Assembly (NCBI GenBank): GCA_019454765.1
Contig: JACFNR010000004.1
Span: forward strand, 21,191-79,779
Direction: 5' to 3'
From: Trueperaceae bacterium
GTDB lineage: Bacteria > Deinococcota > Deinococci > Deinococcales > Trueperaceae
Length of the DNA stretch: 58,589 nt
Part shown: one piece after another, positions 6,821 through 56,517 of the stretch
Numbering within the stretch: position 1 is the first letter of the stretch
How the letters are laid out: each line of letters starts with the position of its first letter
Program-made: the position numbers and the translations under genes
Notes under the pieces: generated by a model
The model's input: only the letters and a program-made list of their open reading frames with translations
Told to the model about the DNA's origin: nothing
The model's database searches: none

Positions 6821-6830
6821 GGTCGTCACC

Positions 6831-36926: not shown

Positions 36927-37843
36927 CAGCCGACCTCGCTGCGGCGGATGAGGCTGAGCAGCACCCCGCTCACGCCCGCCAGGGCGGGGAAGAGGAACAG
37001 CGCCACGGCCGCGCCCTTGCCGAGGTTGCCGCCCAGGATGCCCGTGAAGAACGCCATGGACGCCACCACCTGCGTGCTGTTGGCCGGCCCGCCGCGCGTG
37101 AGGATGAAGATGCTGATCATGTCGCCGAACGTGAACACGAACGTGAACAGGATGGCCACGAGCAGGATGGGCGAGATCATGGGCAGGACGATGTCGAACA
37201 GTCGCCTCAGGTAGCCGGCGCGGTCGATGCGCGACTGCTCGATCACGTCGCGCGGCACGGAGTTGAGGCCCGCCAGCACGATCACCGTGGCGAGCGGCAG
37301 TAGCCGCCACACGTTCACGACGATCACCGACGGCATGGCCAGCTGCTTGTCGCCCAACCAGTAGAGGTTGGGCATGGCGCCCAGGAGCGCCCCGGGGCGC
37401 CCCAGGAGCCCCAGCTGCCTGAGCAGCCAGTCGATGGGGCTGAACACCGAGTCGTACATCCACAACCAGCCGATGAGACCGAGCGCCACGGGTGCCGTCC
37501 ACGGCAGCAGCAGCAGGAACCTCACCACCCACTTGCCGCGGAACTTGCGCATGAGCAGCTCCGCCTGGATGGTGGCGAGGACCAGCACGGCCACGAGCGT
37601 GCCGAACGTGAACCAGATGGTGTTCTTGAGGGCGGTGATGAAGTTGCGGTCGCCGAATAGCTCGAGGAAGTTGCCCGCCCCCACCCAGCGCGGCTCGGTG
37701 CCGCCCGTGGTCACGTCGTGCAGGCTGTAGTAGATGGCCAGCCCGAACGGCACGCCCACCAAGAGCACGATGAAGAGCACCGCCGGCAGGAGCATGCCCA
37801 CCGCCAGGAGGGCGTCGCGGCGCTGCGGCGCGTGGGCGCTCAT
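36926..37843 (-). CDS. Sugar ABC transporter permease, MalF/UgpA type
   Basis: A 305-residue MalF-type permease: six membrane segments, a periplasmic loop (about residues 115-165), and the EAA loop VIEQSRIDRAGYLRRLFDIVLPMISP. The ATG at 37843 overlaps the ATPase stop by four bases, and its own stop overlaps the MalG-type start. Confidence 0.92.
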   Translation of the reverse strand: MSAHAPQRRDALLAVGMLLPAVLFIVLLVGVPFGLAIYYSLHDVTTGGTEPRWVGAGNFLELFGDRNFITALKNTIWFTFGTLVAVLVLATIQAELLMRKFRGKWVVRFLLLLPWTAPVALGLIGWLWMYDSVFSPIDWLLRQLGLLGRPGALLGAMPNLYWLGDKQLAMPSVIVVNVWRLLPLATVIVLAGLNSVPRDVIEQSRIDRAGYLRRLFDIVLPMISPILLVAILFTFVFTFGDMISIFILTRGGPANSTQVVASMAFFTGILGGNLGKGAAVALFLFPALAGVSGVLLSLIRRSEVG

Positions 37844-38931: not shown

Positions 38932-38934
38932 GTC

Positions 38935-39006
38935 AGGCCGCCGCGCGGGAGGCGGGCGCGCGCCCACCTGGCGGGGCCGCGCGCGACCCCGCGCGCGCGG
39001 CGGCCT
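38935..39006 (-). other. GC-rich stem-loop between sugar-binding-protein and ATPase genes
   Basis: A perfect 13-bp stem (38935-38947 with 38994-39006) encloses 46 bases that hold further short inverted repeats. It lies between the stop of the binding-protein gene (39031) and the ATPase start, as the stem-loop at 12307 does in the peptide operon. It probably stabilises or attenuates the transcript. Confidence 0.55.
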
Positions 39007-39030
39007 TGGAGCGGGGGCGGTGGTGCAAGG

Positions 39031-40464: not shown

Positions 40465-40844
40465 CTTCACTCCTTCCACTCCCGTGCCGAGCACGGGCTG
40501 CCCGATGGGACCGCGGCCGGCCGCCTGCCGGCACGCCCGCCGCGAACGGCCCCCCGAGACGGGCATAGGGCGTCGCCTGAGGCCCGAGGCTCACGGCAGG
40601 GAAGGGAAGACGCGGTGGAAGGAGGCCCCGCGTGAGCGCGGGCGAGGCTGTTTGCACGACTCGACTCCGGCTCGCCTCCTTCTCGCGCGAACGCGCGCGC
40701 CTGGCGAGGGTGGCTCGGCGCGCCGCTCGCGGCGCCCGGCCGGCCACGGCCTGCGCGGCCCGCTGCGCAGGTGCGCGCGGCCGCCGCTAGGTCGCCAGGT
40801 TAGTTACCGAGGTCACAATAGGTCCGGGCGGGCGGGCGGTGCAA
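40465..40844 (-). promoter_or_regulatory. Promoter and long structured leader of the sugar ABC operon
   Basis: On the minus strand TTGCAC (40844-40839), an 18-base spacer and TATTGT (40820-40815) form a plausible promoter. This leaves a leader of about 345 bases before the GTG at 40464. The leader holds GC-rich stems: 40750-40756 with 40765-40771, and 40695-40701 with 40717-40723. It matches no riboswitch class I recognise. Bases 40845-41124, before the GH114 gene, show nothing further that I can support. Confidence 0.45.
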
Positions 40845-41124: not shown

Positions 41125-42345
41125 ATGGCCAGGCAGGTCAGCATCATCGGTAGGCGTAACTTGCAGTTGCTCGTCGCAGGTCTACTCGTAGCGCTCGTCG
41201 CCGCCTGCTCCGCGGGTGAGACGACACGCGCAGGCGGCGTCGCAATTTACGCCAGTCTCGACCCCGCCCACGCCGACGCCTTCCCGCTCGACGGCCGCAC
41301 CCTCGAGGTTTCGCCCCTGCACGTGTTCGTGCGCGAACCGTCGGGCGGACTCGAGTTCGTCGAGTTCACCGTGGTAGGCGCTGATGGCGACAACCTCCTC
41401 ACCTACACCGACCACGACTCCCCCTTCACTCCGACGGCGGATGCCGGGCCGTTGGAGCTGGCCGAGTACGGCGAGGGCACGCTAACCATTGTGGCCAGGT
41501 CGAAGCTCGCCGCGGGCCCGACGGTCACGGCCCACGCCACCTTCCGGGTCGCGAGCGCACAACAGCCCCCGGCCGACCCCGATGACCCGCGCGAGCCTCA
41601 CGACCCGAGCGGTCCGGGTGCGCCGGGGCGACCCACGACGGGCAACATCTGGCAACCCAAGCCCGGCACGTCGTGGCAGTGGCAGCTGTCTGGCAGGCTC
41701 GACACTAGCGTTCCCGCCGATGTCTACGACATCGACCTCGAGACCAACAGCGCCGCCACCATCGCCCAGTTGCACGACCAGGGCCGGCGCGTCATCTGCT
41801 ACTTCAGCGCCGGCAGCTTCGAGCCCGGACGTTCCGACGCCGGGCAGTTCCCCGCGGCCGTGAAGGGCAAGAAGATGGCCGGTTGGAACGAGCTCTGGCT
41901 CGACATCCGCAAGATCGACGCCCTCGCCCCCGTCATGCTCGCGCGCCTCGACATGGCCGTCGCCAAGGGTTGCGACGCCGTCGAGCCCGACAACGTCGAC
42001 GGCTACCAGAACGACACCGGCTTCCCCCTGAAGGCGGCTGACCAACTCGCCTACAACCGCTGGCTGGCCGGCGCCGCGCACGAACGCGGCCTCGCCATCG
42101 GCCTCAAGAACGACCTCGATCAGGTGACGGACCTCGTCGACCACTTCGACTTCGCGGTCAACGAGGAGTGCTTCGCCTACGGCGAGTGCCGGCTGCTCCT
42201 TCCTTTCGTCAGGGTAGGCAAGGCCGTGTTCGGGGCCGAGTACGAGATCCCGACTGCACGCTTCTGCGCCGAGGCGAACGAGCTCAACATGGACTTCATC
42301 CGCAAGAACTGGGACTTGGACGCCTTCCGGCAGTCCTGCCGCTGA
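41125..42345 (+). CDS. GH114 lipoprotein, putative endo-alpha-1,4-polygalactosaminidase
   Basis: A 406-residue surface lipoprotein (LVALVAAC, Cys28) with a beta-rich domain (about 35-143), a Pro/Asp linker, and a GH114 domain from about 175. GH114 signatures are WQWQLSG, YDIDLETN (Asp202/204), RVICYFSAGSFEPGRSD, WLDIR, GCDAVEPDNVDGY (Glu287, Asp289) and GLKND. GH114 enzymes such as fungal Ega3 cut galactosamine-containing polymers (family knowledge). The ATG at 41125 has AAGAGG upstream; the longer frame adds non-protein-like sequence. It converges on the minus-strand PelF/PelG cluster and probably acts on the same polymer. Confidence 0.9.
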   Translation: MARQVSIIGRRNLQLLVAGLLVALVAACSAGETTRAGGVAIYASLDPAHADAFPLDGRTLEVSPLHVFVREPSGGLEFVEFTVVGADGDNLLTYTDHDSPFTPTADAGPLELAEYGEGTLTIVARSKLAAGPTVTAHATFRVASAQQPPADPDDPREPHDPSGPGAPGRPTTGNIWQPKPGTSWQWQLSGRLDTSVPADVYDIDLETNSAATIAQLHDQGRRVICYFSAGSFEPGRSDAGQFPAAVKGKKMAGWNELWLDIRKIDALAPVMLARLDMAVAKGCDAVEPDNVDGYQNDTGFPLKAADQLAYNRWLAGAAHERGLAIGLKNDLDQVTDLVDHFDFAVNEECFAYGECRLLLPFVRVGKAVFGAEYEIPTARFCAEANELNMDFIRKNWDLDAFRQSCR

Positions 42346-42366
42346 GGGCCTTAGCGCGGGAGCGGG

Positions 42367-43080
42367 TCAGCCGGGCAGGCCGGTGACGTCGCGGTTGGTC
42401 ACCTGCACCGGCACCTCAAGGTTCGCGCCGCGGGACACCGCGAAGTCGGCCAGTTCCGGCCGGTTGGCGTAATCGAGTACGAACAGCTCGCGCCCGGTCG
42501 CGCGCAGGCCCGGCAGGCGCGCGGCGTTGTCGAGGAGCTCGCGGCCGCGCAGGGCGCGGTAGCCGTCCTCCCAGGTGGTGGAGAAGGCCTCGAACAGGAA
42601 ACCGTCCACGAGGGGCGCCAGGTCGGCGAGTAGCGCGTGACCGCGGTTAGCTAACATGTAACCTCCGGCGACGACGGCACGCAACTCGCGCACGACAGCG
42701 AGCGCCGCCCTGCGGTGGCCGCCAAGGATGGGCGGCGTCTCGAGGGTGTCGAGCAGGAGCCCCGTGAAACCGGCAGCCAGAGCCGCCTCTGCCTGCCGCC
42801 GCAGGTGCTCGTGCCAACCCGGGTGGGCTACGTCGACGTAACTGCCGCCCCACACGGGGTTCTTGCCAGCCAGCTGCCACGGCGCCATCGGGCCCGTGTC
42901 CTCGCCCACCGACAGGTAGGCCAGGGAGCTAACGCCCTGCGCGGTCAGCGCGGCGATCTCCCCGGTCGTGTAATGGTCAGGTTGCAGCACGACACGCCGA
43001 CTGGCAGCGAGGGCGGGCAGCTGTCCGGAACCGTAGTAAACGAGGAGGTCGCCGTGACCCCTATAGGAGGTAGATGGCAT
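42367..43080 (-). CDS. GH114/PelA-hydrolase-like TIM-barrel protein without signal peptide
   Basis: A 237-residue protein resembling the TM1410/PelA N-terminal hydrolase group of GH114-like barrels. Features in order: LVYYGSG, VVLQPDHYT, LAYLSVGED, YVDVAHPGWHEHL, GLLLDTLETP, LANRGHALL, DGFLFEAFS and LDYANRPE. The ATG at 43080 lies inside the end of the PelG-like gene (20-base overlap). No export signal is visible, so it is either cytosolic or exported by another route; if it acts on exported polymer, that is puzzling. It is the last gene of the exopolysaccharide cluster. Confidence 0.8.
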   Translation of the reverse strand: MPSTSYRGHGDLLVYYGSGQLPALAASRRVVLQPDHYTTGEIAALTAQGVSSLAYLSVGEDTGPMAPWQLAGKNPVWGGSYVDVAHPGWHEHLRRQAEAALAAGFTGLLLDTLETPPILGGHRRAALAVVRELRAVVAGGYMLANRGHALLADLAPLVDGFLFEAFSTTWEDGYRALRGRELLDNAARLPGLRATGRELFVLDYANRPELADFAVSRGANLEVPVQVTNRDVTGLPG

Positions 43081-44386
43081 ACCGGCCCACCTGCCTGACA
43101 CGCCACTGGGCCACGAGCAGTAGGGAGGCGGCCAACGCGACGCCCACCCAGAGGAAGGGCAGCCCCGCCCACGCCGCCACCCCCGCCAGGACGAACGGCA
43201 CGCTGGCGCCGGCCGGGTTGCCGAGCGCGAAGTCGACCACGGCGATCCCGAGGCTCGTGCCGAACAGGCCGAAGGCGTACCAGTGGAAATGCCACGGCGC
43301 CGGCCCGGCGAGGAGCTCGAGAGCCAACGCGGCGCCCAATGGGACGAGGAACAGCGTCACGTAGCCGAGGAGGGCGAGCTGCGCGAACTGTTTGAAGTCC
43401 GCCCTGTTCCGCGCGCGCCAGAGGCGGTCGGTGAGTAGCGCCTTTAGGGCGATGAGGAGACGCTGCGACACCAGGATGATGACGAGCAGCAGTAGCGCGC
43501 CCGGCAGGACGTTGCGGTCGGGCTCCTGGTCCGCGAGGAGCGCGAGGATGAGCAGCCCCTGGCCCACGCCGTAGAGGAGCGGGTGTGGCACTACGCCGGC
43601 GCTGCGCCGCAGCCATGCCAGGCTCTGGCGCGGGTCGTGGCGCGCAAGGGGTAGGCACAGAGAGGTTGCCGTGCCGATGGCCACGAGCTGCACGACGATC
43701 GGTGGCAACGAGAACGCCGCCGAGAGCGCGAGGCCGGCCCCGACCACCAGCGGCACGGCGACCGCGGCGAGGTGCCGTTCGGCCCAGAGCAGGCTGCCAA
43801 CCGCGAACCAGACGAGCGTTGGCGCCAGCGTGGCCGGCCCGAACCGCAGGAGCAGCCAGGTCAGGGCCAGCGCCACCAGCCCCAGCTGCACGATCACGGC
43901 CAGCGCCCCGCGTTGGTCGGCGTGCGGGAGCTCGCCCTTCGCCTTCATGAGTAGCGCGGACCCGACCTGCGACCAGACGAGCACGACGACGGCCGGCGCC
44001 AACATCTCCACCTGACTGAAGGCGCCCAGGAAGTAGGTGATCACGAACGCCAGGCACATGGCCGTAGGCGTGGCCCAATCGCGCTTGTCTTTGCGCTTCG
44101 GTTCGCGCCGCTCGCGGATCCTCGGGGTGCGCTCGTAGAGCGCGTGCGCCAGCTCGAAGTGACTGGTCACGTGGAAGCGCGCAAGGGCGGTCGGGCTGTT
44201 GAGGCCGAGCGCCTCCAAGTGCGCGACGATCTCGTAGGGGTCGCTTGCCTCCAGGCAGAGCCGGTTGAGGGAGCGGCCGAGCCGGTCGATGGGGTCGCTG
44301 CTGCGGCGCTCGGCTCCCGCCCAAGAGTCCGCCGCCACCTCGGGTGGCACGTAGTCGGGCGGCGTGTAGGCGACGGGCTGGCTCAT
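43061..44386 (-). CDS. PelG-like multi-spanning membrane protein
   Basis: A 441-residue protein: a cytosolic N-terminal region of about 105 residues, rich in charged residues, then 12 hydrophobic segments. This layout suits a polysaccharide exporter of the MOP-flippase type, and pairing with a PelF-like glycosyltransferase (one-base overlap TGATG) suggests PelG. No strict PelG signature is visible and the N-terminal extension is unusual, so the assignment rests on context and topology. It would move the polymer across the inner membrane. Confidence 0.68.
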   Translation of the reverse strand: MSQPVAYTPPDYVPPEVAADSWAGAERRSSDPIDRLGRSLNRLCLEASDPYEIVAHLEALGLNSPTALARFHVTSHFELAHALYERTPRIRERREPKRKDKRDWATPTAMCLAFVITYFLGAFSQVEMLAPAVVVLVWSQVGSALLMKAKGELPHADQRGALAVIVQLGLVALALTWLLLRFGPATLAPTLVWFAVGSLLWAERHLAAVAVPLVVGAGLALSAAFSLPPIVVQLVAIGTATSLCLPLARHDPRQSLAWLRRSAGVVPHPLLYGVGQGLLILALLADQEPDRNVLPGALLLLVIILVSQRLLIALKALLTDRLWRARNRADFKQFAQLALLGYVTLFLVPLGAALALELLAGPAPWHFHWYAFGLFGTSLGIAVVDFALGNPAGASVPFVLAGVAAWAGLPFLWVGVALAASLLLVAQWRVRQVGRYAIYLL

Positions 44387-45801
44387 CAGACGGCGCGGGC
44401 CTGCTTGCGGGCGCGCACCCCCAGCTCGCCATAGAGGCCGCGGTAACCGTCGTACATGCGCGAGAGCGTGAAGAGCTGTAGAGCGCGCTCGCGGGCGCCG
44501 ACGCCTAGGCGCCGTCTGAGCGGAACGTCCACGAGGAGTTCCGTCAGAGCGGCGCCGAGCTCGTCGGGCGAGCGTGGGTCGACCATCCGCCCGAAATCGC
44601 CGACCGCCTCCCCGACGCCACCCACCTGGGTGGCCACCACCGGTCGGCCGCACATCATGGCCTCGATGGCAACGTACGGGAAGCCCTCGGAGATGCTGGA
44701 GAGCGCCACGACGTCGGCGGCGTGATAGGCGTGATGAACCGGCTTGACCGGCCCCTCGAAGGTGACGGAGCCGCCCAGGTCGAGGTCGCGCACGAGTCCC
44801 TTGACCTTGGCGTCGTACTCCTCGTTCCCCTTCGGGACGGGCCCGAAGAGCTTCAGCTTGGCCTCCGGCGCGGACTTCGTCACCGTCGTGAACGAACGCA
44901 CAAGGGTCTCGAGGTCCTTGATGGGGTCGATGCGGCCCACCCACGACACGGTGGGTCGTGACTGCGTGTCTGTTGTGGCCACGGGGAACGCCTCCGGCGC
45001 GACGCCGTTGTACACGATGCGCGTTCTCTCGGCCGGCGCCCCGAGCTCGATCTGCCAGGTGCGGTTGAACTCGCTGACCGACACGATCAGGTCGGCCTCC
45101 TGGTACATCATCCGCGCCAGGGCGTAGTAGAAGCGGGACCGGAGCAGCTTGAGGCCCGGCGGGTTCTCCTCGCTCGTGAGGCTCAGGTACCGCTCGCGCA
45201 GGTAGAGGCCGTGCTCGGTGAGCATCAGCGGCACACCGTAGGCCTTGGCTACTAACCAGGCGGGGATGGCCGAGAGGCCGTTCGAGGTTGTGTGGGCCTG
45301 GTCGGCGTGCGGTGGGATGAAGAGGAGGGGCCCAAGCGTGCCCTTCAGCCAGTTGACCGCCAGCGCGACCTCCGCCATGGGCGGAGCCTCGCCGTTGGTG
45401 CGCCAGATGGCCACACGCACCGCCTCCCAGGTGGAGCGCTTGTCGAAGTAGGGCCACAGGTCGACGTCGGTGCCCAGCGTGGCGAGGTCTAGAAGCCCGG
45501 TCGCGAACGACTCGAGGTCGTCCTCGGCGAACCCAAGCAGGCGTTCCAGGCCGCGCGCGAACGTGCGTTCGGAGCCGCGCCCCTTGCCGGGACGACCGCT
45601 CCTTGGCGTCCACAGCCTGACGGAGGTCAGGCCTCTCACGTTGGCGGATAGGGCGTAGGCCGGCTTCGTCGGCAGCGGCCCGGTCACCTCGAGCAGGTGG
45701 TACTCGTGCTCGGCCATGCCGCGCACCAGCTGGTCGCACCAGGTCGAGACCCCACCCATGATCGAGGGGTAGGTGCCTTCGGTGGTCAGGAGGAGCTTCA
45801 C
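44386..45801 (-). CDS. PelF-like GT4 glycosyltransferase
   Basis: A 471-residue cytosolic glycosyltransferase of the PelF (DUF3492 + GT4) type. The N-terminus TTEGTYPSIMGGVSTWCDQL is close to the PelF signature. ADQAHTTSNGLSAIPAWLVAK and MLTEHGLYLRERYLSL follow. The C-terminal GT4 domain has NGV, VGRIDPIKD and the EGFPYVAIEAMMCGRPVVAT nucleotide-sugar site. In known Pel systems PelF uses UDP-GalNAc/GlcNAc. The GTG at 45801 has AGGGGG upstream and starts MKLLLTTEG. Its stop overlaps the PelG-like start. It is the polymerase candidate of the cluster. Confidence 0.88.
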   Translation of the reverse strand: MKLLLTTEGTYPSIMGGVSTWCDQLVRGMAEHEYHLLEVTGPLPTKPAYALSANVRGLTSVRLWTPRSGRPGKGRGSERTFARGLERLLGFAEDDLESFATGLLDLATLGTDVDLWPYFDKRSTWEAVRVAIWRTNGEAPPMAEVALAVNWLKGTLGPLLFIPPHADQAHTTSNGLSAIPAWLVAKAYGVPLMLTEHGLYLRERYLSLTSEENPPGLKLLRSRFYYALARMMYQEADLIVSVSEFNRTWQIELGAPAERTRIVYNGVAPEAFPVATTDTQSRPTVSWVGRIDPIKDLETLVRSFTTVTKSAPEAKLKLFGPVPKGNEEYDAKVKGLVRDLDLGGSVTFEGPVKPVHHAYHAADVVALSSISEGFPYVAIEAMMCGRPVVATQVGGVGEAVGDFGRMVDPRSPDELGAALTELLVDVPLRRRLGVGARERALQLFTLSRMYDGYRGLYGELGVRARKQARAV

Positions 45802-45939
45802 GCCGCGCCCCCTGCGGCCGCGCGCGCGACTACCCACCACGCGCCCACCTCCGCACGCCGACGCGCGGTGCGGCGAGCGTGCCGCGCCGTGTGAGCGCCG
45901 GGTCGGAGGTGAGCGGGGCGGGAGGGCGGCATCGTCATG

Positions 45940-48900
45940 TCAATCCAAGAACTCGAAGCTCACGTCGATCGCGACGTCGGAACGGACGATCATGCTGCAG
46001 GTTTGCCCGGTGCAGGCTCCCGTGAAGCCGCCGAGGGTGGAACCGAGGAGCGGCACGGCCGTGAGGGTGACGGTGGTACCGGCCGGGACGGTGGCGCTGC
46101 AGTCGTCCACGCACGCCTGGCCGGCCGGGCTGGCGATGACGGCACCCAGGCCCGACCCCGAGAAGGTGAGGGTGAGTTCGACCATCTCGGTGACGGGCGG
46201 GGTCTCGACCGTCACCGTCGTCTCCCTGACGACCTCACCGCCGGGCCAGGCGGCCACCAGTTCGTACGTCGTGGTGGCGAGGGGGCCCACGGAGCGGCTG
46301 CCGTCGGCGGGGAGGTCGGTGGCCACCACGGCGCCGCCCTTCTCGCGCAGGACGATGCTCGTCGAGGTGCCGGTCACCGTCCAACTGAGGAGGGCGCTCT
46401 GGCCGGCCGTGATGGTCGCCGGCGACGCGCCGAACGTGATGCTCGGCTCGACCGGCGCCGAGGTGACGGCCACGGTGGCCGTCCGCACGATGGGGGCGCC
46501 CCCGGTCCAGGTGACAACGAGCTCGTAGGTGGTCGTAGTCGCCGGGCTCGCGGTGTGCGAGCCGGTGGCCGGCAGACCTCCCTCGACCTCGGCGCCGCCC
46601 TGCACCCGCAGCGAGATCGATTCGTGGGCACCCGTGACGCTCCAGTGGAGCTCGGAGCTGCCGCCCGCGACGATGCTCGCGGGGTCGGCGACGAACGTGA
46701 TGGCCGGCGCCTCCGGCGGGGTGACCGTGACGACGGTGCTCGCCGTCACGGCGGCGCCACCGGAACGCGCGACGACCAGCTCGTAGGTAGTGGTGGCGGC
46801 CGGGGTCACCGCCAGCGTGCCGCTCGGCTGCAGCAGCGTGGCGACCATGCCGCCGCCGGCTTCTCGGACCGTAATCGTGTCGAACGCCCCCGTCACGTTC
46901 CAGCCGAGCGTGCTCGTGTCGCCGAGGTCGATGCCGGCGGGTGTGGCGGTGAACGACTCGATGACGGGGGCGGTTGGCGCTCCCCCGTCGACGCTGAAGC
47001 GGATCGTCTGCCCGGGAGCGAGGCTCCTCTGCGAGATGGTGCGACCGTTGTAGGTGACGTTGGTGGCGCCGCCGCCAAGCGACGCGCCAGTGAAGAAGAC
47101 GGGGCCGCCAGCGGCCGACGTCAGCGTGACGAGCCCGGTGGATCGGTCCCACACTGCGGACACGCCCGCGTCCAAGAACTGCGTGCGCGCCAGGACGTAG
47201 TCGCCCGTCTGGTCGTTCATGTAAGTGAGGAGCGGCTCGTTGACCATGGAGGCGTACTTGCCAAGGAGCACCTCGGTCCAGTCGAAGAGCGTCGAGCGGC
47301 CGGCCTCGTACTCGTAGAAGTTGGGGATGTGGAAGTAGTGCGGGTAGGGCGAGCCGGCGAGCAGGTGTCCGAGCGCGATGTCGGTGTCGATGTCGAGGAT
47401 CTGCTCGTAGGTCAGCGGATCGTCGTAGCCGAGCTCGTGGAAGGTACCCGGAGGGTAGACGATGTTGTACGCCTGCGTGACGGCCGCCGGCGTGGTGACC
47501 GTGGCGAACAGGTTGGTGGGGTAGCGCGGCACGAGGAACACGGCGGGGTCCATGGGGTGGACGATGCCGCACGACCAGCAGTCGGGCTCGTGGCTGGGGG
47601 TCGACATGTTGGAGGCCAGGTAGCTCTTGCCCGTGGCGACGGCCGCTTCGAGCAGGTAGGGGCTCGAGGCGTTGAGGCCGAAGTCGACCTTCTGCACCGG
47701 CTCGTGCTCGGGACCGAGCGGGTCGTACCAGCCGAGGCCGGAGATGTCGCCGGTCACCAGGCTCCTACCCGAGTAGGTCGGGGTGAGCCCGAAGGTCGAC
47801 GCCAAGCCGTCGTTGAGCGAGATTTCAGTCGTTACCTGCGCCGTGTCGAGGTTCACGTGAGGCGGGTTGTAGTCCATGTAGGCGTGCGTCCACGTGTGGT
47901 TGACCCACCAGAAGTCGCCCGCCAGGCAGCGCGTCATGCTCGATAGCGTGTGCAAGTTGGTGGGCAGGGCGCAGTCGACGACGCTTCCGACGTCGGCACC
48001 CGAGCCGTTGAAGGCCATCGACCAGGTGAAGTCGCTGGCGATGCCGCCGCCGATGGCGCGCAACAGGTTCTGCTGCGCGACCAGGCTGTATGCGTCCTGC
48101 GCCGACATGGCGAAGCCGGGGTCGTCGACGATCTGCGCCGTGTCGACGTCCCACAGGCCGGTGACGCTGAACCAGTCGTCGACGTCGGCCTGGTAACTGT
48201 TGCGCTTCTCGCCGATGTGCACGCCGCCGAGCGCCCAGCGAAGGAGCGACGGCCCGATCTGTTGGGTGTAGATGGCTGGCGTGTTGGTGACGCCCCAGGC
48301 GGGGTTGTTGTAGAGCATGGCAACTCGCTCGCGGCCGTCCGTGTTCGTGTGCACGGCGAGGATGTCGCCGTTCGCGGCCGTGAGGAGCGGGGTGGTGCCG
48401 GGCTGCGGGTCGCTGCTAGGGAAGCCGGTGGTGCCGTAAGGGAGGATGACGCTGCTCACACCTAGGTCGGTGAAGACCGCACGGCCCGCCGCCGTGGCAG
48501 TCAGGGTCATGCCGTCCATCGGCGTCTCGCCGCCCACCGGCGTGACGCCGTAATCCTCGTGAGGGCTGTAGGGGCTGGCGAAGAGCGTCGCCTGGCGCAC
48601 CCCGTAGGCGCGCTCGTAGTTGAACAGGACGTCCCACTCCGTGCTGCTGAGGGCCGAGGGCCACGCCGTGCCGTCGAAGTACACCAGGTTGCTGGTGCTG
48701 AGCAGCACCGCCTGGTAGCGACCGACGCCGTCCTCGCGCACGAGGACCTCCGGCGTGATGGTGGTGGTGCTGGCGACCACCCAGTCGTACGGGACGCCGG
48801 CCTGATCCAGGAGCGTCTTCCAGGCGCCCGCGGAGGCCTCCGCGACGAGGTTGTCTGTGGCGCTGAGGAGGAGGGCCTTCATCTCGACCTCGTCGCCTAG

Positions 48901-49176
48901 GGCCTGGGGCATGATCCAGCCGCTGGGCTCGCCTTCCGGGATGACGCCCAGGTGCAGCGGGGCAGAGTAGAACGGCCCGCGCGGCACGAAGGCGGCGCCG
49001 TCCCACTCGGGGGCGCTGGTGGGCGGGAGCTCGAAATCGGCTCGTGGGTCGGCGCTCCTTGTGGGGGCGCCCGTGCTGCTGCACGCAGCCAAGACGCTGA
49101 TCAGCACCCCCATGAGGAGTAGCGTCACCGCCTTGAGCCAGACAGCGTCGCGGCCGCTCCTGCCGACCACCTTCAC
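45940..49176 (-). CDS. Large lipoprotein with Agd3/CE18-like deacetylase domain and three Ig-like repeats
   Basis: A 1078-residue surface lipoprotein (SVLAAC, Cys32). Residues about 60-315 form an N-terminal domain; about 316-660 resemble the CE18 deacetylase of fungal Agd3, a NodB-like fold with DVDDWF (Asp333-334) and HTWTH (His427, His431) as metal and catalytic sites, plus PYPHYFHIPN near residue 615. Three Ig-like repeats follow (738 to about 990), then a Cys-containing InlB-type repeat. Agd3 removes acetyl groups from galactosaminogalactan (family knowledge). The GTG start overlaps the upstream lipoprotein stop (GTGA). It probably deacetylates the PelF-made polymer. Confidence 0.82.
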   Translation of the reverse strand: MKVVGRSGRDAVWLKAVTLLLMGVLISVLAACSSTGAPTRSADPRADFELPPTSAPEWDGAAFVPRGPFYSAPLHLGVIPEGEPSGWIMPQALGDEVEMKALLLSATDNLVAEASAGAWKTLLDQAGVPYDWVVASTTTITPEVLVREDGVGRYQAVLLSTSNLVYFDGTAWPSALSSTEWDVLFNYERAYGVRQATLFASPYSPHEDYGVTPVGGETPMDGMTLTATAAGRAVFTDLGVSSVILPYGTTGFPSSDPQPGTTPLLTAANGDILAVHTNTDGRERVAMLYNNPAWGVTNTPAIYTQQIGPSLLRWALGGVHIGEKRNSYQADVDDWFSVTGLWDVDTAQIVDDPGFAMSAQDAYSLVAQQNLLRAIGGGIASDFTWSMAFNGSGADVGSVVDCALPTNLHTLSSMTRCLAGDFWWVNHTWTHAYMDYNPPHVNLDTAQVTTEISLNDGLASTFGLTPTYSGRSLVTGDISGLGWYDPLGPEHEPVQKVDFGLNASSPYLLEAAVATGKSYLASNMSTPSHEPDCWSCGIVHPMDPAVFLVPRYPTNLFATVTTPAAVTQAYNIVYPPGTFHELGYDDPLTYEQILDIDTDIALGHLLAGSPYPHYFHIPNFYEYEAGRSTLFDWTEVLLGKYASMVNEPLLTYMNDQTGDYVLARTQFLDAGVSAVWDRSTGLVTLTSAAGGPVFFTGASLGGGATNVTYNGRTISQRSLAPGQTIRFSVDGGAPTAPVIESFTATPAGIDLGDTSTLGWNVTGAFDTITVREAGGGMVATLLQPSGTLAVTPAATTTYELVVARSGGAAVTASTVVTVTPPEAPAITFVADPASIVAGGSSELHWSVTGAHESISLRVQGGAEVEGGLPATGSHTASPATTTTYELVVTWTGGAPIVRTATVAVTSAPVEPSITFGASPATITAGQSALLSWTVTGTSTSIVLREKGGAVVATDLPADGSRSVGPLATTTYELVAAWPGGEVVRETTVTVETPPVTEMVELTLTFSGSGLGAVIASPAGQACVDDCSATVPAGTTVTLTAVPLLGSTLGGFTGACTGQTCSMIVRSDVAIDVSFEFLD
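46200..46980 (-). repeat. Coding repeats: three Ig-like modules
   Basis: Three tandem modules of about 85 residues share the pattern (F)xAxPxxIxxGxSxxLxWxVTG...GG...GS..V.P..TTTYEL. They match the eleven modules in the protein at 50304-55694. Confidence 0.85.
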
Positions 49177-49991
49177 AGGCTCCCCGGGTAGGCGAGGCGA
49201 AGGGTGTTGACCATGAGGAGCGCGCTGCCGCTACGGGCCTGGGTGGTGGTGATGCGGCCCAACGTGTCTAGCGTGCCGGTGGCGAAGCCGGCGTCCACGA
49301 GCTCTTGACGCGTGGCGTCCGGGAAGACGAAGGCGCCGAGGGAGTCGTCGGCGAGGCACGAGTAGCTGACCCCACCGCTCGAGCCCACCAGGAGCACGGC
49401 GGCCTTGCCGGTGGTGGGGGTCCAACCGAACACGGTGTCCACCGTCACGCCGTTGGCGTCGAAGCCCGGAGCGACGACCGGTTCGCTGCCGGTGTCGACG
49501 GGGACGCCGGCGAAAGCCGGGAAGCCGCCGGTGGCGGCGATATCCACGGTGAGCGCCGCAGGCAACGGGCCGGTTGCCCCCGCGAGGTGGTAACGGTCGT
49601 TCTCGTCGCGAGTCAGGGACGCGTAAGTGCTGCCACCGACGTGAAGCGTGGGGTCGCCGGCGAGCAGCCGGTTCCCGCCCGCAGCGGGCGAGGCAGGACC
49701 CGTCCCGGGCGCCGCCGCCGACGCCACGCGGCAGGTGCCGAGCTGCTCTCCGAACGGCTCGGCGAGAAGTCGTTCCGCCCGCGCAGTGCCGAGCGCAACG
49801 AACGTCGCCTGGCCAGCCGCGGCGCCGGCGTGCGCCTGGGTCAGGAGAACCACGCCGACGCGGTCGACCGACCCCGGCGCGAGCTGATCCTGCGGCCTGC
49901 AACTGGCCAGCACCGTCGCCAGGCAGGCGAGCGCTGCTGCGGCGGCGAGCCTCGCGCCGCGGCCGGTACCGTGTGAACTCGTGAACGTCAT
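49173..49991 (-). CDS. Small lipoprotein of unknown family, paired with the CE18-like gene
   Basis: A 272-residue lipoprotein (ATVLASC lipobox). I do not recognise the family. It is clearly paralogous to the product of 55699-56517: both have SVDR(V/I)GVVLL after the lipobox, NRL(L/N)AG, YASL(T/S)R, and a C-terminal GRIT(T/S)TQA(R/T)SGS(A/S)LLM(V/I)N. The ATG at 49991 has AAAGGA upstream. Its stop overlaps the start of the CE18-like gene by four bases. It could be a partner that anchors or regulates the deacetylase. The 312 bases before it hold an inverted repeat but no gene. Confidence 0.8.
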   Translation of the reverse strand: MTFTSSHGTGRGARLAAAAALACLATVLASCRPQDQLAPGSVDRVGVVLLTQAHAGAAAGQATFVALGTARAERLLAEPFGEQLGTCRVASAAAPGTGPASPAAGGNRLLAGDPTLHVGGSTYASLTRDENDRYHLAGATGPLPAALTVDIAATGGFPAFAGVPVDTGSEPVVAPGFDANGVTVDTVFGWTPTTGKAAVLLVGSSGGVSYSCLADDSLGAFVFPDATRQELVDAGFATGTLDTLGRITTTQARSGSALLMVNTLRLAYPGSL

Positions 49992-50103
49992 CTGGCAGGG
50001 TCCTTTCGGTTGGGGGCGCGCCGCGCTGCCGGCTCGGGGCGAGGCGGGCGCGCGACTGCGGACCAGGTGCCGCGCCCCCGCGGCCGTGGGTCTCATATCG
50101 GGC

Positions 50104-50123
50104 AGCGCGAGTACTTTCGCGCT
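50104..50123. promoter_or_regulatory. Inverted repeat upstream of the small lipoprotein gene
   Basis: AGCGCGA (50104-50110) and TCGCGCT (50117-50123) form a 7-bp inverted repeat with a 6-base loop, in the 312-base gap 49992-50303. It could be an operator or an RNA hairpin. A TATCAT on the minus strand near 50235 resembles a -10 box without a clear -35. Confidence 0.35.
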
Positions 50124-50303
50124 CGTACGTTGGAGAGTAGGTGATGGCTTCTTACAACGCTCTTATGCCCCCGGGCCGGGCCGCGCCCCAGAGAGGGGTG
50201 TGCCTCCGTGGCGCGGCGCCGTCGAACAGGCATGATACCGCGCTCCCGCCCCGCATTGCCGGGTCGAGGTGTCAATGAGGCGGTCGCCGCGCCTTGCACC
50301 GCG

Positions 50304-53300
50304 TCAGTCCTCGAACCCGAAGCGCGCCTCGACCACTAGTGGCTCGCCGGCCAGGACCAACGAGCATGCGTCACCGGTGCACGCACCGCCGAAGCCCTGG
50401 AAGGTCGAACCCAGGAGGGGCACCGGCGTGAGTGTCACGGTCGTTCCCTCGAGGTAGGCGACGGTGCACTCGTCGAGGCAGACGGCTCCGTTCGGGCTGC
50501 CTATCACGAGACCGAAGGCCTCGCCGGTGACCCGCAGCGTCAGGGTGGTCTCGCCTTCGCCTGGCTCGGGGTCCGGATCCGGGTCGGGGTCAGGGTCCGG
50601 TGCGGGCCTGACCACGACCGTGGTCTCGGCCGTGACGGTACCGCCCGCCCAGGTGGCTGCCAACTCGTAGGTGGTGGTCGCCGCTGGTGCGACTTGCCGC
50701 GTGCCGACCGTGTTGACGCCAGCGGCGATCACGTCGCCCCCCTTGATCCTCAACGACACGCCCGTGGCGCTGCCCGTGACCGCCCACGACAACTGCGTGC
50801 TCTCGCCCTCGGTTATCGTGGCCGGATAGGCAGATAGCGTCACCTCCGGCTCCACCGGTGCGGCGGCGACCTCGACGGTCGCTTGGCGCACGATGTCTGG
50901 GCCGCCGCCCCAGCTGACCACGAGGTGGTAGCTGGTCCTCGCCGTGGGGGTGACCGGGAAGCTGCCGACCGCGTCGGCGTTGGCCAACAAGATGACTCCC
51001 GCCTCCGTCTGCAGGGTCACGGCGTCGTGAGCCCCGGTCACCTCCCAGGCGAGCGTGGAGGTATCGCCCGCGACGATGCTCGCGGGGTTGGCCGAGAAGC
51101 TCACGGCGGGGGCGGCCGGGTTGACTGTCACCAGCGTCGCCGCCGTGACGGGCGCCCCGGCTGGCCACGTCACAACTAGCTCGTAGGTCGTGGTCGCTGT
51201 CGGGGTGACCGTGCGGGAGCCGGTGGCCCCAAGCCCATCGGCGATCGTTCCCGCCGAGTTCCTCAGGCTGATGTTCGTGTACGTACCGGTGACCGCCCAG
51301 CTCAGGCTTGTCGCCTGACCCGCCGTGACGGTGCCGGGGTTGGCGGTCAGGGTGGCTGCGGGAGCGACCGGCAGAGGTTCGACCGTGACCGTAGTGGTGG
51401 CGATGGTGGCGGGGGAACCAACCACCGGCGTGACGACGAGTTCGTAGGTGGTCGTTGTCGTGGGTGCGACCACGGCCGAGCCGGTCGCCGCAACGCCGGA
51501 GCTGACGATCTGACCGCCGGAGGTCCGCACGGTCGTGTTCGTGAAGTGGCCCGCCACCTGCCAGGCGAGGGTGCTCGCTCCTCCCACCAAGATCGTGGCT
51601 GGCTCGGCAGACAGCGTGCCACTGGGCGCAACCGGCACCTCCACGGTGAGCGCCGTCGTGCGGGTGACGGGTGCGCCACCGCTCCAACCGACCCTGAGCT
51701 CGTAAGTGGTGGAGGCGGCCGGGGTCACCGTGAGCGTCCCGCTAGACGCGAGGCCGTCTTGCACGAGGGTGTCGGCCGCGAACACGGCGATGCCGGTCGC
51801 CGAACCGCGCACCTCCCAGGCGAGGTGCGCGCTCTGCCCGGCGAAGACGGTGGTGGGGGCGACGGCGAAGCCGATGACCTCGGGCGCGACGGGGGCCGGG
51901 CTCACCGTGACGGTCGCCAGGCGGCTCACCGTGCCGCCGAGGTACTCGACGCGGAGCTCGTACGTGGTGGTGGCGGTGGGAGAGACGGGGAGGCTGCCGG
52001 TGCTCGCCTGGTCTGCGGCGAGGACGGTGCCCCCCTGGAGGACCGTCACCCGGGTGTGGCCACCGGCCACCACCCAGGCTAGCGTTGAGGTGCCGCCGCT
52101 GACGATGTCGGTCGGAGTGGCGCTGAAGGTGGCGGTGGGGACGACCGTGACCTGCTGGCTACTCGTGACCGTCCCTCCGGCCCACTCGACGCGAAGCTCG
52201 TAGGTGGTGGTGGCGTCGGGCGTCACGCTTATCGAGCCGTTGCGATCGAGGGCGGAGCCAACGGTCGCGGCCCCGGCGTGAAGCGAGGCGCGCGAGTAAT
52301 CGCCAGTGATGGACCAGGTCAGGAGGCTGCTCCCGCCGAGGTCGAGGCTGGCGGGCGCGGCCGCCAGCGCGGCGACGGGCGCGACTGGTGGAGTGACGGC
52401 GACGGTCACCTCGCGTGTCACCGCGGGCGTCCTCGCCCACTCGACCACTAGACGATAGGTGGTGGTGACGTCCGGGTGGTGCGTGAAGGAGTCGGTGACG
52501 GCCGCGGTCGGCACGAGCACCGTACCGGTGGCGGTCTCCAGCCGGACGTTGGTAGCGCCAGCTCCGACGGCCCAGGAGAGGGTGACAGCGTGACTCGCGG
52601 TGATGCTCGAAGCGCTCGAGGTGAAGGTGACGGTCGGAGGTTCTGGCGCCGCCTCCACCGTGACGGTGACCGGGACGACGACGGGAGCCCCACCCACCCA
52701 ATCCAGTACCAGCTCGAAGGTCGTCGTGGCGGTCGGGCTCACCTGCTGCGTGCCGGTGGCGATGAGGCCTGGATAGAGGACGCCTCCGCCCTGCGTGCGG
52801 ATGGAGATGGACGTGGCGTCGCCGCTGACCTGCCACTCGAGCGTTGTCGCGTCGCCCGAGGCGATGGTGGGAGGCGTGGCGGTGAAGGTGGCGCTCGGTC
52901 GCACGGGGGCCGGCGTCACGGCCACCTCGACCGCAGCGCTCAGCGACTCGCCACCTGCCCAAGCGGCCGCGAGCTGGTAGCTCGTGGACTCGATCGGGCT
53001 GACCGTGAGGTTTCCAGTGGCAGCCAGGCCGTCTGCGACCACGCCGCCGCCAGTCCCTAGCGCCCTCAGTTGTACGTTCCCGTGCGCCCCGGTCACCTCC
53101 CAGGAGAGGGTGCTCGACTCGCCGGCGACCAAGACGGTCGGGTCGGCGACGAGGCTGACGGTGGGGGGCTGGATCACCGCGACCGCCAGCTCGCTAGTCA
53201 GCGTCCCGCCGACCCAGGAGACGACGAGCTCGTAGGTGACGGTCGATCGTGGCTCGACGGAACGCGACCCGCTGGCCGGGAGGCCGGTTGCTACGTCGCC

Positions 53301-55694
53301 ACCGCCCTTCGCGCGCAACGTGATGTCCGTGTTGGCGCCGATCACCGCCCAACTCAGTTCGACCGGCGCGCCGGCCACCACCTCGAGCGCTGACGCCTCG
53401 AACGAGCTGATCTGCGGCGCCGAGGGCGGCGTGCCAGCCACGTCGATGGTCACGCTCTGGTTGGCGGTGAACGCGCGTTCCGAGATGACGCGCCCGTTGT
53501 AGGTGACGGTCGTGGCGCCGCTCCCGAGTGACGCGCCCGTGAGGAACACGGTGCCGCCGTTGGCGGAGGTGACGGTGATCTCGCCGGTCGTGCGGTTCCA
53601 CACACCGCTGACTCCTGCGCGAGCGAAGTCGGTGCGCTTCTGCACGTACGCTGCCGAGTCGTCGTTCTTCAGGGAGTGGAGGGGTTCGTTCACCAGCGCG
53701 GCGTACTTGCCGATCAGGACGCTCGTCCAGTCCGTGAGCACCGACTTGCCGGGCTCGTACTCGAAGACGTTGGGGGTATGGAAGTAGTGCGGGTACGGCG
53801 AGCCGCTTAGTAGGTGACCCAGGGCGATGTCCGTGTCGACGTCGAGGATCTCCTGGTAGGTGAGGTCGTGGTCGAAGTGGTTCTGATCGGTGCCGTGCTC
53901 GCCGTAGACCATGTTGTACGCGTCCACGACCTCCGCCGGGGTGGTAACGGTCGCGAACAGGTTGGTGGGGTAGCGAGGGACGAGGAAGACCTCGAACCCC
54001 GACGCCGCCCCGTAGACGTTGTTGGCGAGCGTGAGGTAGGTGCCGCACGCCCAGCAGCCCGGCTCGTGGCTGGGGGTCGACATGTTCGACGCCACGTAGC
54101 CGTGCCCGGTGCTCACGGCCGCGCGGATGAAGTAGGGGCTCGAGTAGTTCAGGCCATGATCCACCTTGGGGCCGGTGTCGGGGCCTTGCGGGGCGTACCA
54201 TCCCAAGCCCGAGATGTCGCCCGTTACGACGCTGTTCCGGGAGTAGTTGGCGCCGAAGCCGTAGGTGACGGCGAGCTGGTCGTTGTCGGATAGGCGCTGC
54301 TCGACCTCGGCCTGGTCGAGGTTCACGCCGAAGGTTGGGATGAAGTCCATGTACTCGTGATCCCACGTATGGCTAACCCAGAAGAAGTCGTTGGCAACGC
54401 ACTTGGTGATGTAGGTGAGTGTCGCGGAGGTGGATTCGGTGCAGTTGGTGGGCACCTGCCCCTGACCGTCGTACGTGGTGCCCATGCCGTTGAAGGCCAT
54501 GCTCCACGTGAGGGCGGAGGCTATCCCGCCGTTCTGGGAGCGCAAGGCCTGCTGTTGGTCGCGCAGGCTCAGGACGTCCTTCGCCGTCAGGTTGAAGGCG
54601 TCGTCGTCGATCTGGTGCGTGTTCGCGTTCCAGTGTCCTGCGTCTAGGAACCAATCGTCGATGTCGCCCTGGAAGCTGTTGCGCTTCTCGCCCAAGTGGA
54701 TCCCGCGGGTGGCCCACCTGACGAGGGCGGCGCCCAGTTGCTGGGTGTAGGCCACCGGCACGCCGCCCCAAGCGGCGTTGTCGAAGAACAGCCCTACGTA
54801 CTCCCGGCCGCCGTTCGTGACCCGCACCGCCATGACGCTGCCGTCCTGTGCGGTCAGGAGGGGGGTGGCGATACCCGGGTTGACCAGGGTGCTCGGGTAG
54901 CCGTAGGAAGCCTCCACGGTGATCTGGCTTGCGGCGTCGACGTCGGAGAAGACGTCGCGCCCGGCGCTAGTCGTGCCGAGTTGGTAACCGGTGAGGCCCA
55001 CTCCCGTTACGGGAGGGGTGACCCCGTAGTCGTCTGGCGAGCCCCAAGGGAAGGAGGGCTGGGCGTATAGCGCCACTTGACGCACCCCGTAGGCGCGCTC
55101 GTACGCCTGCAGCACCGCCCACTCGGCCGCATCGAACGCGGATGGGAAGGTGCCGTCGGGCGCTTCGTAAGCGAGGTTGTTGGTGGCCAGGAACACCGCC
55201 TGGTACCGGCCGGTACCGTCGCTGGCGACCAGCCGGTCCGTGAGCGACTGCGGGTTCCACTCCGGGTCCGTGGCCACGATGTGGTCGTACGGCATGCCGA
55301 CCTGCTGGAGCAGAGCTAGCGCGGCGTTCAGTGACGGTTCGAAGGGATCGGTCGCGTGGAACGGTCGCGCCGAGATGACCAACGCTCGCATCTGCACCAC
55401 GACATCACCAGGGGCCTGCGGCCAGAGGACCGTCGCCTCTGGATCGGCGGCCGGCAGGATGTAACCGAGGTGAAGTGGGAGCGATGAACCCGGACCCTTG
55501 CGGGCGAGGTTCGGGTTCCAGGCCGGGGCCTCGGGCGGGACCGCAGCCTGCGGTCCGTCTCGCCTCGGGCCGGCGTCAGCGTTCGGGCCGTCGCCGCTAC
55601 ACGCGGCGACGGCCAAGACGACGGCGATCAGCAGGAGGGCGAAGCGGATGGCGGCGCTCCTCGTCAAGCGGCGGTGCTTGGGTGCTCGTGGCAT
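50304..55694 (-). CDS. Giant lipoprotein (1796 aa) with Agd3/CE18-like deacetylase domain and eleven Ig-like repeats
   Basis: A 1796-residue surface lipoprotein (AVAAC, Cys32), paralogous along its length to the product of 45940-49176. The deacetylase domain has DIDDWF (Asp346-347) and HTWDH (His442, His446), so the metal site looks intact. From about residue 758, eleven Ig-like modules of ~85 residues follow, ending in an Asp-Pro repeat linker and a Cys-containing InlB-type domain (VTLTPVPLLGSTFQGFGGACTG). The stalk could project the enzyme far from the membrane. It starts four bases after the stop of its partner lipoprotein gene. It is the largest gene in the window. Confidence 0.83.
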   Translation of the reverse strand: MPRAPKHRRLTRSAAIRFALLLIAVVLAVAACSGDGPNADAGPRRDGPQAAVPPEAPAWNPNLARKGPGSSLPLHLGYILPAADPEATVLWPQAPGDVVVQMRALVISARPFHATDPFEPSLNAALALLQQVGMPYDHIVATDPEWNPQSLTDRLVASDGTGRYQAVFLATNNLAYEAPDGTFPSAFDAAEWAVLQAYERAYGVRQVALYAQPSFPWGSPDDYGVTPPVTGVGLTGYQLGTTSAGRDVFSDVDAASQITVEASYGYPSTLVNPGIATPLLTAQDGSVMAVRVTNGGREYVGLFFDNAAWGGVPVAYTQQLGAALVRWATRGIHLGEKRNSFQGDIDDWFLDAGHWNANTHQIDDDAFNLTAKDVLSLRDQQQALRSQNGGIASALTWSMAFNGMGTTYDGQGQVPTNCTESTSATLTYITKCVANDFFWVSHTWDHEYMDFIPTFGVNLDQAEVEQRLSDNDQLAVTYGFGANYSRNSVVTGDISGLGWYAPQGPDTGPKVDHGLNYSSPYFIRAAVSTGHGYVASNMSTPSHEPGCWACGTYLTLANNVYGAASGFEVFLVPRYPTNLFATVTTPAEVVDAYNMVYGEHGTDQNHFDHDLTYQEILDVDTDIALGHLLSGSPYPHYFHTPNVFEYEPGKSVLTDWTSVLIGKYAALVNEPLHSLKNDDSAAYVQKRTDFARAGVSGVWNRTTGEITVTSANGGTVFLTGASLGSGATTVTYNGRVISERAFTANQSVTIDVAGTPPSAPQISSFEASALEVVAGAPVELSWAVIGANTDITLRAKGGGDVATGLPASGSRSVEPRSTVTYELVVSWVGGTLTSELAVAVIQPPTVSLVADPTVLVAGESSTLSWEVTGAHGNVQLRALGTGGGVVADGLAATGNLTVSPIESTSYQLAAAWAGGESLSAAVEVAVTPAPVRPSATFTATPPTIASGDATTLEWQVSGDATSISIRTQGGGVLYPGLIATGTQQVSPTATTTFELVLDWVGGAPVVVPVTVTVEAAPEPPTVTFTSSASSITASHAVTLSWAVGAGATNVRLETATGTVLVPTAAVTDSFTHHPDVTTTYRLVVEWARTPAVTREVTVAVTPPVAPVAALAAAPASLDLGGSSLLTWSITGDYSRASLHAGAATVGSALDRNGSISVTPDATTTYELRVEWAGGTVTSSQQVTVVPTATFSATPTDIVSGGTSTLAWVVAGGHTRVTVLQGGTVLAADQASTGSLPVSPTATTTYELRVEYLGGTVSRLATVTVSPAPVAPEVIGFAVAPTTVFAGQSAHLAWEVRGSATGIAVFAADTLVQDGLASSGTLTVTPAASTTYELRVGWSGGAPVTRTTALTVEVPVAPSGTLSAEPATILVGGASTLAWQVAGHFTNTTVRTSGGQIVSSGVAATGSAVVAPTTTTTYELVVTPVVGSPATIATTTVTVEPLPVAPAATLTANPGTVTAGQATSLSWAVTGTYTNISLRNSAGTIADGLGATGSRTVTPTATTTYELVVTWPAGAPVTAATLVTVNPAAPAVSFSANPASIVAGDTSTLAWEVTGAHDAVTLQTEAGVILLANADAVGSFPVTPTARTSYHLVVSWGGGPDIVRQATVEVAAAPVEPEVTLSAYPATITEGESTQLSWAVTGSATGVSLRIKGGDVIAAGVNTVGTRQVAPAATTTYELAATWAGGTVTAETTVVVRPAPDPDPDPDPDPEPGEGETTLTLRVTGEAFGLVIGSPNGAVCLDECTVAYLEGTTVTLTPVPLLGSTFQGFGGACTGDACSLVLAGEPLVVEARFGFED
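50605..53420 (-). repeat. Coding repeats: eleven Ig-like modules
   Basis: Eleven tandem modules of about 80-90 residues, each ending in a TTTYEL-like strand followed by (W/G)-x-GG and a VTV strand. They are divergent at DNA level, so the array is old rather than a recent expansion. A codon run for about five Asp-Pro pairs marks its 3' end (about 50565-50600). Confidence 0.85.
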
Positions 55695-55698
55695 GACG

Positions 55699-56517
55699 TC
55701 ACTCGTTCCTTGGGTCGGTGAGGCGGAGGGCGTTGATCATCAGGAGCGAGCTGCCGCTCGTGGCCTGGGTGCTGGTGATGCGGCCGACGACGTCGAGCTT
55801 GCCGCCGGCGAAGCCGGCCGCTGCGAGCTCCTGGCGCGTGGCCTCGGGGAAGGCGAAGGTGCCGGTGGCGTCGTTGGCGAGACAGCTGAAAGCGGTTCCC
55901 CCGCCCGAGCCGATGAGGATGACCGCCGAGCCAGCCTCGCCCGGGTCCCACGCGAACGCCGTCTCGGTCGTGATGGCATCGGGATCGACGGTGTCGGCGA
56001 GCCGCAGCGCCGTTCCTGTGGCGACACTCAGGTCCGTCAACGACGGGAAAGCTCCGCTCACGGCCAGGTCGAAGCTCAAAGCCGCAGGCAGTGGCTCGGT
56101 CGCGCCAGCCAACTGGTAATGGCCGGAGTCGGTGCGCGAGAGGGAGGCGTAGTTGGTGCCGCCAGCCCGGAACGTCGCGTTACCGGCGTTCAGCCGGTTG
56201 CCGGTTGCGCCGGGGGCCATCGGACCTGCCGAGGGGTCTACGTCACCGGTCACGCGGCAAGAACCGACCTGAGCACCGAGCGGCGCCGCTACCTGGGCCG
56301 CTGCGCGCGGCGCCTCTAGTCGGGTGAAAGTCGCCTGCCCGGATACCTTTCCGCTTGGTGCCTCGCTCAGGAGCACCACCCCGATGCGGTCGACAGATCC
56401 GGCCGGGCGGCCCTCCGGCGGCCTGCACGCCACCAAGACCGCGCCCAGGCAGGTCAACAGCGTGACCCATCGACGCCACGCTCCGTTCATGGTTCTGGTG
56501 CTCCGCGAATGCGCCAT
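55699..56517 (-). CDS. Small lipoprotein of unknown family, paired with the giant CE18-like gene
   Basis: A 272-residue lipoprotein (GAVLVAC lipobox), paralogous to the product of 49173-49991 over its whole length, including SVDRIGVVLLSEAPSGKVSG and RITSTQATSGSSLLMINALRL. The ATG at 56517 has AAGGA upstream, as the paralogue does; MNGAWRR at 56490 is an alternative start. It is the first gene of the exopolysaccharide cluster, four bases before the giant deacetylase gene. Its function is unknown; the conserved pairing suggests a complex. Confidence 0.8.
   Translation of the reverse strand: MAHSRSTRTMNGAWRRWVTLLTCLGAVLVACRPPEGRPAGSVDRIGVVLLSEAPSGKVSGQATFTRLEAPRAAAQVAAPLGAQVGSCRVTGDVDPSAGPMAPGATGNRLNAGNATFRAGGTNYASLSRTDSGHYQLAGATEPLPAALSFDLAVSGAFPSLTDLSVATGTALRLADTVDPDAITTETAFAWDPGEAGSAVILIGSGGGTAFSCLANDATGTFAFPEATRQELAAAGFAGGKLDVVGRITSTQATSGSSLLMINALRLTDPRNE

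Follow-up and report, generated by a model that had tools for sequence, protein, structure and literature searches.

What is made by a gene cluster that seems to join parts of the bacterial Pel system to parts of the fungal galactosaminogalactan (GAG) pathway, and by what route would the product leave the cell? The question is raised by a 58,589-nt stretch of DNA from a Trueperaceae bacterium (Deinococcota; contig JACFNR010000004.1), hereafter the window, in which a first-pass annotation had seen a bacterial polymerase/exporter pair combined with separate enzymes of the fungal style. The operon lies on the minus strand and runs from 56517 to 42367 through seven genes, which encode in this order a small lipoprotein, CE18 deacetylase B, a second small lipoprotein, CE18 deacetylase A, PelF, a multi-spanning membrane protein (MEM) and a hydrolase. 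Most of these genes abut or overlap their neighbours: the start of the MEM gene is overlapped by the stop of pelF, and the ATG of the hydrolase gene lies 20 bases within the 3′ end of the MEM gene, while spacers of about 200 and about 140 bases lie upstream of the second lipoprotein gene (49173-50096) and of pelF, respectively. A gene for a GH114 lipoprotein (41125-42345, plus strand) is convergent to the operon and separate from it, and beside this gene a solute-binding protein and an ABC transporter are encoded at 36926-40566. Judging from the sequence analyses described below, we think it probable that the products of the operon make a Pel/GAG-like, GalNAc-rich exopolysaccharide, export it and remove part of its N-acetyl groups, and that the operon belongs to a second branch of PelF machines.

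The glycosyltransferase encoded at 44386-45801 (471 aa, GT4, minus strand) is a PelF, with scores of 175 bits against NCBIfam NF038011 (cut-off 100) and 160 bits against PF11997, and it takes its place in the PelF tree described below. The two large lipoproteins, A (45940-49176, 1078 aa) and B (50304-55694, 1796 aa), both encoded on the minus strand, are Agd3-type CE18/CBM87 deacetylases. They match PF25116 with 44.7 and 44.5 bits and PF25115 with 25.6 and 34.4 bits (cut-off 27.6), and a profile built from 18 CE18 proteins of Deinococcota (DEACETYLASES) found a single PDB protein, Aspergillus Agd3 (6nwz, E=1.3e-42); PelA 9cgy (900 aa) was in the same library and was not matched. With Agd3 as the only profile match, a PelA-type deacetylase (CE21, or the CE26 of Gram-positives) was rejected. 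Both copies possess equivalents of the residues that are essential in Agd3, namely D377, D378, H510, H514, R613 and H668 (PMC7229062), in the common pattern DxDD, [NS]HTWxH, VPRYPTN and HYFHxPN, which reads DVDDWF, NHTWTH, VPRYPTN and HYFHIPN in A (where the assignment also draws on an alignment with 6nwz) and DIDDWF, SHTWDH, VPRYPTN and HYFHTPN in B. The full complement of the family is present: CBM87, the CE domain, the catalytic base, the metal triad, the CM3 arginine and the catalytic histidine. The two points on which the first-pass annotation had staked its reading, a match to PelF at 44386-45801 and a likeness of the large lipoproteins to CE18, have therefore both been borne out.

The two deacetylases differ in their stalks. 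Both carry Ig-like repeats, each some 86 aa long: copy A has three of them and an InlB-B-repeat-like C-terminus (PF18998, score below cut-off), and copy B has a tail of about nine, as counted by their signature. In another genome (G093) one of the counterparts reaches 2644 aa with 17 such repeats. The small putative lipoproteins encoded at 49173-50096 (307 aa, paired with a CE18 gene) and 55699-56517, both on the minus strand, are paralogues with 49% identity, for which G093 encodes two homologues; they match nothing in Pfam or NCBIfam, and their AF2 model is unreliable (pLDDT 41). The lipoprotein/CE18 pair has been duplicated in tandem, apparently before the split from G093, since either CE18 copy shares more identity with its G093 counterpart (62-63%) than with its local paralogue (51%).

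Two hydrolases of the GH114 type had been proposed, and one of them keeps this assignment. The lipoprotein encoded at 41125-42345 (406 aa, lipobox VAAC) is of the endo-alpha-1,4-galactosaminidase type, with 280.7 bits against PF03537 and the motifs VEPDNVDGY and NEECF, and its homologues lie close to the operon in Meiothermus and in some Trueperaceae. The hydrolase of the operon itself (42367-43080, minus strand, 237 aa) matches PF03537 only marginally (28.8 bits; cut-off 27). A profile of 13 homologues matched the P. aeruginosa PelA hydrolase 5tcb (GH166) in the PDB at 4.5e-33 and PelA 9cgy at 2e-30, with weaker matches to TM1410 (GH191, 6e-9) and to 9ep5, which has an annotated GH114 domain (1.6e-6); as this comparison favours PelA-H/GH166, a GH114 identity was rejected for this protein. 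In line with GH166 enzymes, it combines a PelA-H-like TIM barrel with a conserved aspartate and glutamate: D111 and E164, invariant in the alignment columns of 61 of 61 homologues, align with the aspartate of the PelA motif LFLDTLD and with E218. With one GH114 and one PelA-type GH166 enzyme, the hydrolase side of the locus is not purely fungal in style.

The GH166 protein lacks a signal peptide, as do its relatives in two overlapping sets, 13 sequences from Deinococcota and the 48 loci scanned (about 60 relatives). In all homologues inspected the barrel begins directly after the start codon with no signal-like segment, and several of the genes (e.g. those of loci L090 and L107) have an in-frame stop 2-5 codons upstream, which leaves no space for a signal. 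Since none of these relatives has a signal peptide, the hydrolase is probably cytosolic. Pel systems place the PelA hydrolase outside the cytoplasm, whereas this PelA-H homologue lacks a signal peptide; the PelA-H of B. cereus is synthesised with a signal sequence and works extracellularly (PMC7112168), so that a cytosolic PelA-type hydrolase is unusual.

The claim of a PelG-like protein with 12 transmembrane segments fared less well. MEM (43061-44386, minus strand, 441 aa) is a putative polymer exporter, as judged by its AF2 model, Foldseek matches and co-occurrence. None of 16 family members matched any Pfam model, PelG included, the window protein found no match in NCBIfam, and the MEM profile found nothing among PDB sequences. 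An hhalign comparison of 70 MEM with 9 PelG proteins, the latter a thin set (Neff 2.5), gave a probability of 0.2%. MEM was thus rejected as a PelG by profile, and at the level of sequence it is an unannotated family separate from PelG; it was not found on plasmids. The AF2 model (pLDDT 81.5, pTM 0.72) suggests a fold like that of the MOP superfamily: the first 19 Foldseek matches in the PDB were all MATE, MurJ or WzxE proteins, with probabilities mostly near 1, E-values of 0.012 or worse and TM scores of 0.38-0.46, values that fall short of proving a common fold. PelG is itself a MOP member (PMC13254593), and in this predicted structure the likeness of MEM to it goes no further than the MOP fold. 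In addition, MEM begins with a helical domain (roughly residues 32-86) that is conserved in all 81 MEM-type proteins compared and in which L36, A55, L57, E58, G61 and F77 are invariant.

These observations bear on the closest alternative, namely that MEM is a highly diverged PelG and the locus an ordinary Pel operon that lacks pelD, pelE, pelB and pelC and has had its deacetylase swapped. MEM and PelG share the predicted superfamily fold, and MEM holds the position of PelG after pelF. Furthermore, a 590-aa protein encoded near a PelF gene in genome G126 carries the N-terminal domain of MEM together with a membrane part that weakly matches PelG (20.3 bits, under the cut-off) and may connect the two exporters, and in two Actinomycetota genomes (G136 and G166) the genes for PelF, PelG and CE18 are adjacent, so CE18 occurs with the classical exporter too. 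The profile comparisons with PelG described above speak against this alternative, as do the absence of the MEM N-terminal domain from PelG and the deep split between the PelF proteins of the two types. We regard it as a serious contender, somewhat less likely to be right than wrong.

That split was seen in a quick tree computed by maximum likelihood from 55 PelF proteins, where a single branch (SH-aLRT 100) separates the 9 whose partner is PelG from the 46 whose partner is MEM or a MEM-like protein. PelF thus appears to be divided by exporter type into a PelG side and a MEM side; because the tree has long branches, midpoint rooting and few PelG rows, we take it as support, not proof.

The distribution of the genes ties MEM to PelF and CE18. 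CBM87 (for CE18), PelF over its cut-off and MEM were searched for independently of one another across 111 Deinococcota genomes, and were found in the identical 27, none of which has PelG. Indeed, PelG (PF16933) was detected in none of the 111, with a positive Thermotoga control, and in none of 15 CE18-bearing actinomycete genomes. The 27 genomes are scattered over 9 of 31 genera, and patchiness extends into the genus of the window, where two of six genomes are positive. That three sets searched independently coincide exactly implies strong functional linkage, although no meaningful formal probability can be attached to this because the genomes are related. The gene order CE18-PelF-MEM is conserved in Deinococcota. 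When genome contigs of bacteria and archaea were scanned for CE18, 61 loci were returned, mostly from Micromonosporaceae, Streptosporangiaceae and Pseudonocardiaceae (Actinomycetota) together with Thermaceae and Trueperaceae. PelF and MEM adjoin CE18 in this same order in 59 of them, and the remaining two end at or near the ends of contigs or stretches; a strong GH166 match lies within 10 kb in 48. Certain actinomycete genomes encode PelF and a MEM-type protein with no CE18 beside them. The proposal of an undescribed Pel variant in Deinococcota cannot be upheld in that form, with the core common in Actinomycetota and bacterial agd3 operons reported in 2020 (PMC7229062).

The same conservation bears on the idea that this is a scavenging locus, which would bind, deacetylate and degrade polymers resembling galactosaminogalactan, made by fungi or by other bacteria, and import the products through the ABC transporter. 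The solute-binding protein and transporter beside the GH114 gene fit this idea, as does the fact that the enzymes are lipoproteins. The transporter, however, does not belong to the conserved neighbourhood of CE18-PelF-MEM, and what invariably accompanies CE18 is a cytosolic polymerase together with a membrane protein, for which reason we set a catabolic role aside as highly improbable.

A further alternative keeps the machinery and changes the product to another amino-sugar polymer, such as a mixed Gal/GalNAc, GlcNAc-containing or wall-linked glycan, in place of a Pel/GAG polymer. MEM-type PelF proteins are often merely 37-45% identical within Deinococcota and are deeply split from classical PelF, and the Meiothermus loci contain nucleotidyltransferase and epimerase genes, which suggest another activated sugar. 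Yet the characterised relatives of GH114, GH166 and CE18 all act on alpha-1,4-GalN/GalNAc polymers (PMC12054363, PMC7229062, PMC7112168), and we consider a different product unlikely.

Of the other components of classical Pel systems, PelD (PF16963) was over cut-off in none of the 111 genomes, as the first-pass annotation had noted for this locus, in a search that had no positive control and is weaker than the PelG result. No candidate for PelB, PelC or PelE was recognised among the locus proteins scanned with the general models of Pfam and NCBIfam. Deinococcota have an outer membrane, and no exporter for it was recognised among the same proteins.

How, then, might a GalNAc-rich exopolysaccharide be made and exported by this operon? 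PelF, by its family, would polymerise UDP-GalNAc in the cytosol, and MEM, with its MOP-like predicted fold, would act as exporter in PelG's stead. The N-terminal domain of MEM is predicted to be cytosolic and may dock PelF, as PelD and PelE do in classical Pel. Outside the membrane, the CE18/CBM87 lipoproteins on their long Ig-like stalks would deacetylate the emerging polymer, presumably alpha-1,4-GalNAc, rendering it cationic and adhesive, and the secreted GH114 enzyme may trim the deacetylated polymer. The GH166 enzyme, with its conserved catalytic residues and no signal, could cut stalled or over-long chains in the cytosol, in an editing role. Several points weigh against this scheme. Although the host is diderm, no outer-membrane exporter was recognised among the scanned locus proteins; the link from MEM to PelG runs through predicted fold only, at E-values of about 0.01 and the TM scores given above; no epimerase for UDP-GalNAc is adjacent to the operon in the window; and in the cytosol a GH166 enzyme would encounter polymer that is still fully acetylated, although its family favours partly deacetylated stretches (PMC12054363).

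The cluster type is already known from Bamford et al. (2020, PMC7229062), who described bacterial operons in which agd3 is accompanied by genes for a cytoplasmic glycosyltransferase, a membrane protein with multiple spans and a GH114 enzyme, and who named Actinobacteria and Deinococcus-Thermus. The window locus has all of these beside its Agd3-type CE18/CBM87 proteins. In the available text of that paper, PelF and PelG do not occur, the membrane protein is uncharacterised and a signal-less GH166 is not mentioned. The pelDEADAFG operon of B. cereus is alike in its PelF, MOP-type exporter, separate deacetylase and PelA-like hydrolase and in having no outer-membrane parts, but has PelG, PelD, PelE and a CE26 deacetylase (PMC7112168, PMC13254593), where the window locus lacks PelG and PelD, carries CE18 and has a hydrolase without a signal. 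The pelABCDEFG system of P. aeruginosa shares PelF and a hydrolase, PelA-H, related to the GH166 enzyme; its periplasmic PelA, however, fuses hydrolase and CE21 deacetylase, which are separate here, and it includes PelB, PelC, PelD, PelE and PelG. In the Aspergillus galactosaminogalactan cluster (uge3, sph3, gtb3, ega3, agd3; PMC4817252), CE18 and GH114 are likewise separate proteins, but the polymerase is a single transmembrane protein, Gtb3, whereas the window locus has separate polymerase and exporter genes and no Sph3 or Uge3. The proposed combination of a bacterial polymerase/exporter pair with fungal-style separate enzymes thus stands for PelF, CE18/CBM87 and the separate hydrolases, and fails for the exporter, which is not PelG. 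What seems new here is the PelF branch, the proposed replacement of PelG and the probably cytosolic GH166; in the literature searched, subscription papers and supplementary tables aside, we found no description of the MEM family, its pairing with a PelF branch or the signal-less GH166.

The Pel surveys of 2020 took proteins of the Pel operon, PelF and PelG among them, as their anchors, and Deinococcota go unmentioned in their main texts (PMC7112194, PMC7112168). Surveys that start from PelF together with PelG, or from PelC, would miss the MEM branch, which 27 of the 111 Deinococcota genomes and dozens of actinomycetes carry. More tentatively, and with more doubt than assurance, we suggest that there are two ancient kinds of PelF machine: one with PelG, controlled by PelD and PelE, and one common to Deinococcota and Actinomycetota, in which a MOP-fold exporter with a PelF-docking domain replaces PelG, PelD and PelE and which works with CE18 and intracellular editing by GH166. 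The fungal GAG pathway could derive from the latter kind, and the loci described here supply bacterial candidates for testing a bacterial origin of that pathway. Finally, these results raise the question of what a PelA-type hydrolase does inside the cell, give a likely role to an unannotated exporter family, and suggest that a PelF polymerase may work without the PelD/PelE c-di-GMP module.

A second polysaccharide cluster of the Wzx/Wzy type appears to flank the PelF/CE18 operon, as suggested by the Wzx-like flippase, several GT4 glycosyltransferases, Wzc/ParA-like AAA proteins and asparagine synthase encoded, together, at 31942-33582 of the window and in the stretch immediately to its right (contig positions 79600-99599). 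The window also carries a candidate defence element, a gene for a TOTE conflict system primase-helicase at 20669-22957 on the minus strand (PF22548, 235 bits, with ResIII and Helicase_C).

Ig-like repeats can form unusually long stalks for the Agd3-type CE18 deacetylases, as seen at 50304-55694 of the window and at 3992-11926 of the comparison locus L033. Each repeat spans about 86 aa, and the copy number ranges from 3 to 17, differing between paralogs and species. The window's CE18 genes are each paired with one of two paralogous genes for small putative lipoproteins (49173-50096 and 55699-56517); among the loci searched, such proteins were found only in this genome and in genome G093.

Other observations concern MEM, the multi-spanning membrane protein and putative exporter of the operon. 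In a Thermus locus (L047) its reading frame lies in two pieces of 315 and 231 aa, owing to an assembly error or else to disruption of the gene. In the actinomycetotal genome G126, a 590-aa protein encoded near a PelF gene (L119, 9307-11076) has the MEM N-terminal domain and a membrane part that weakly matches PelG; it is a possible evolutionary link between MEM-type exporters and PelG. Finally, in further actinomycetotal loci (L123-L129), a PelF-like glycosyltransferase lies next to a protein that bears the MEM N-terminal domain, with no CE18, a pair that may represent a further, undescribed polysaccharide locus.
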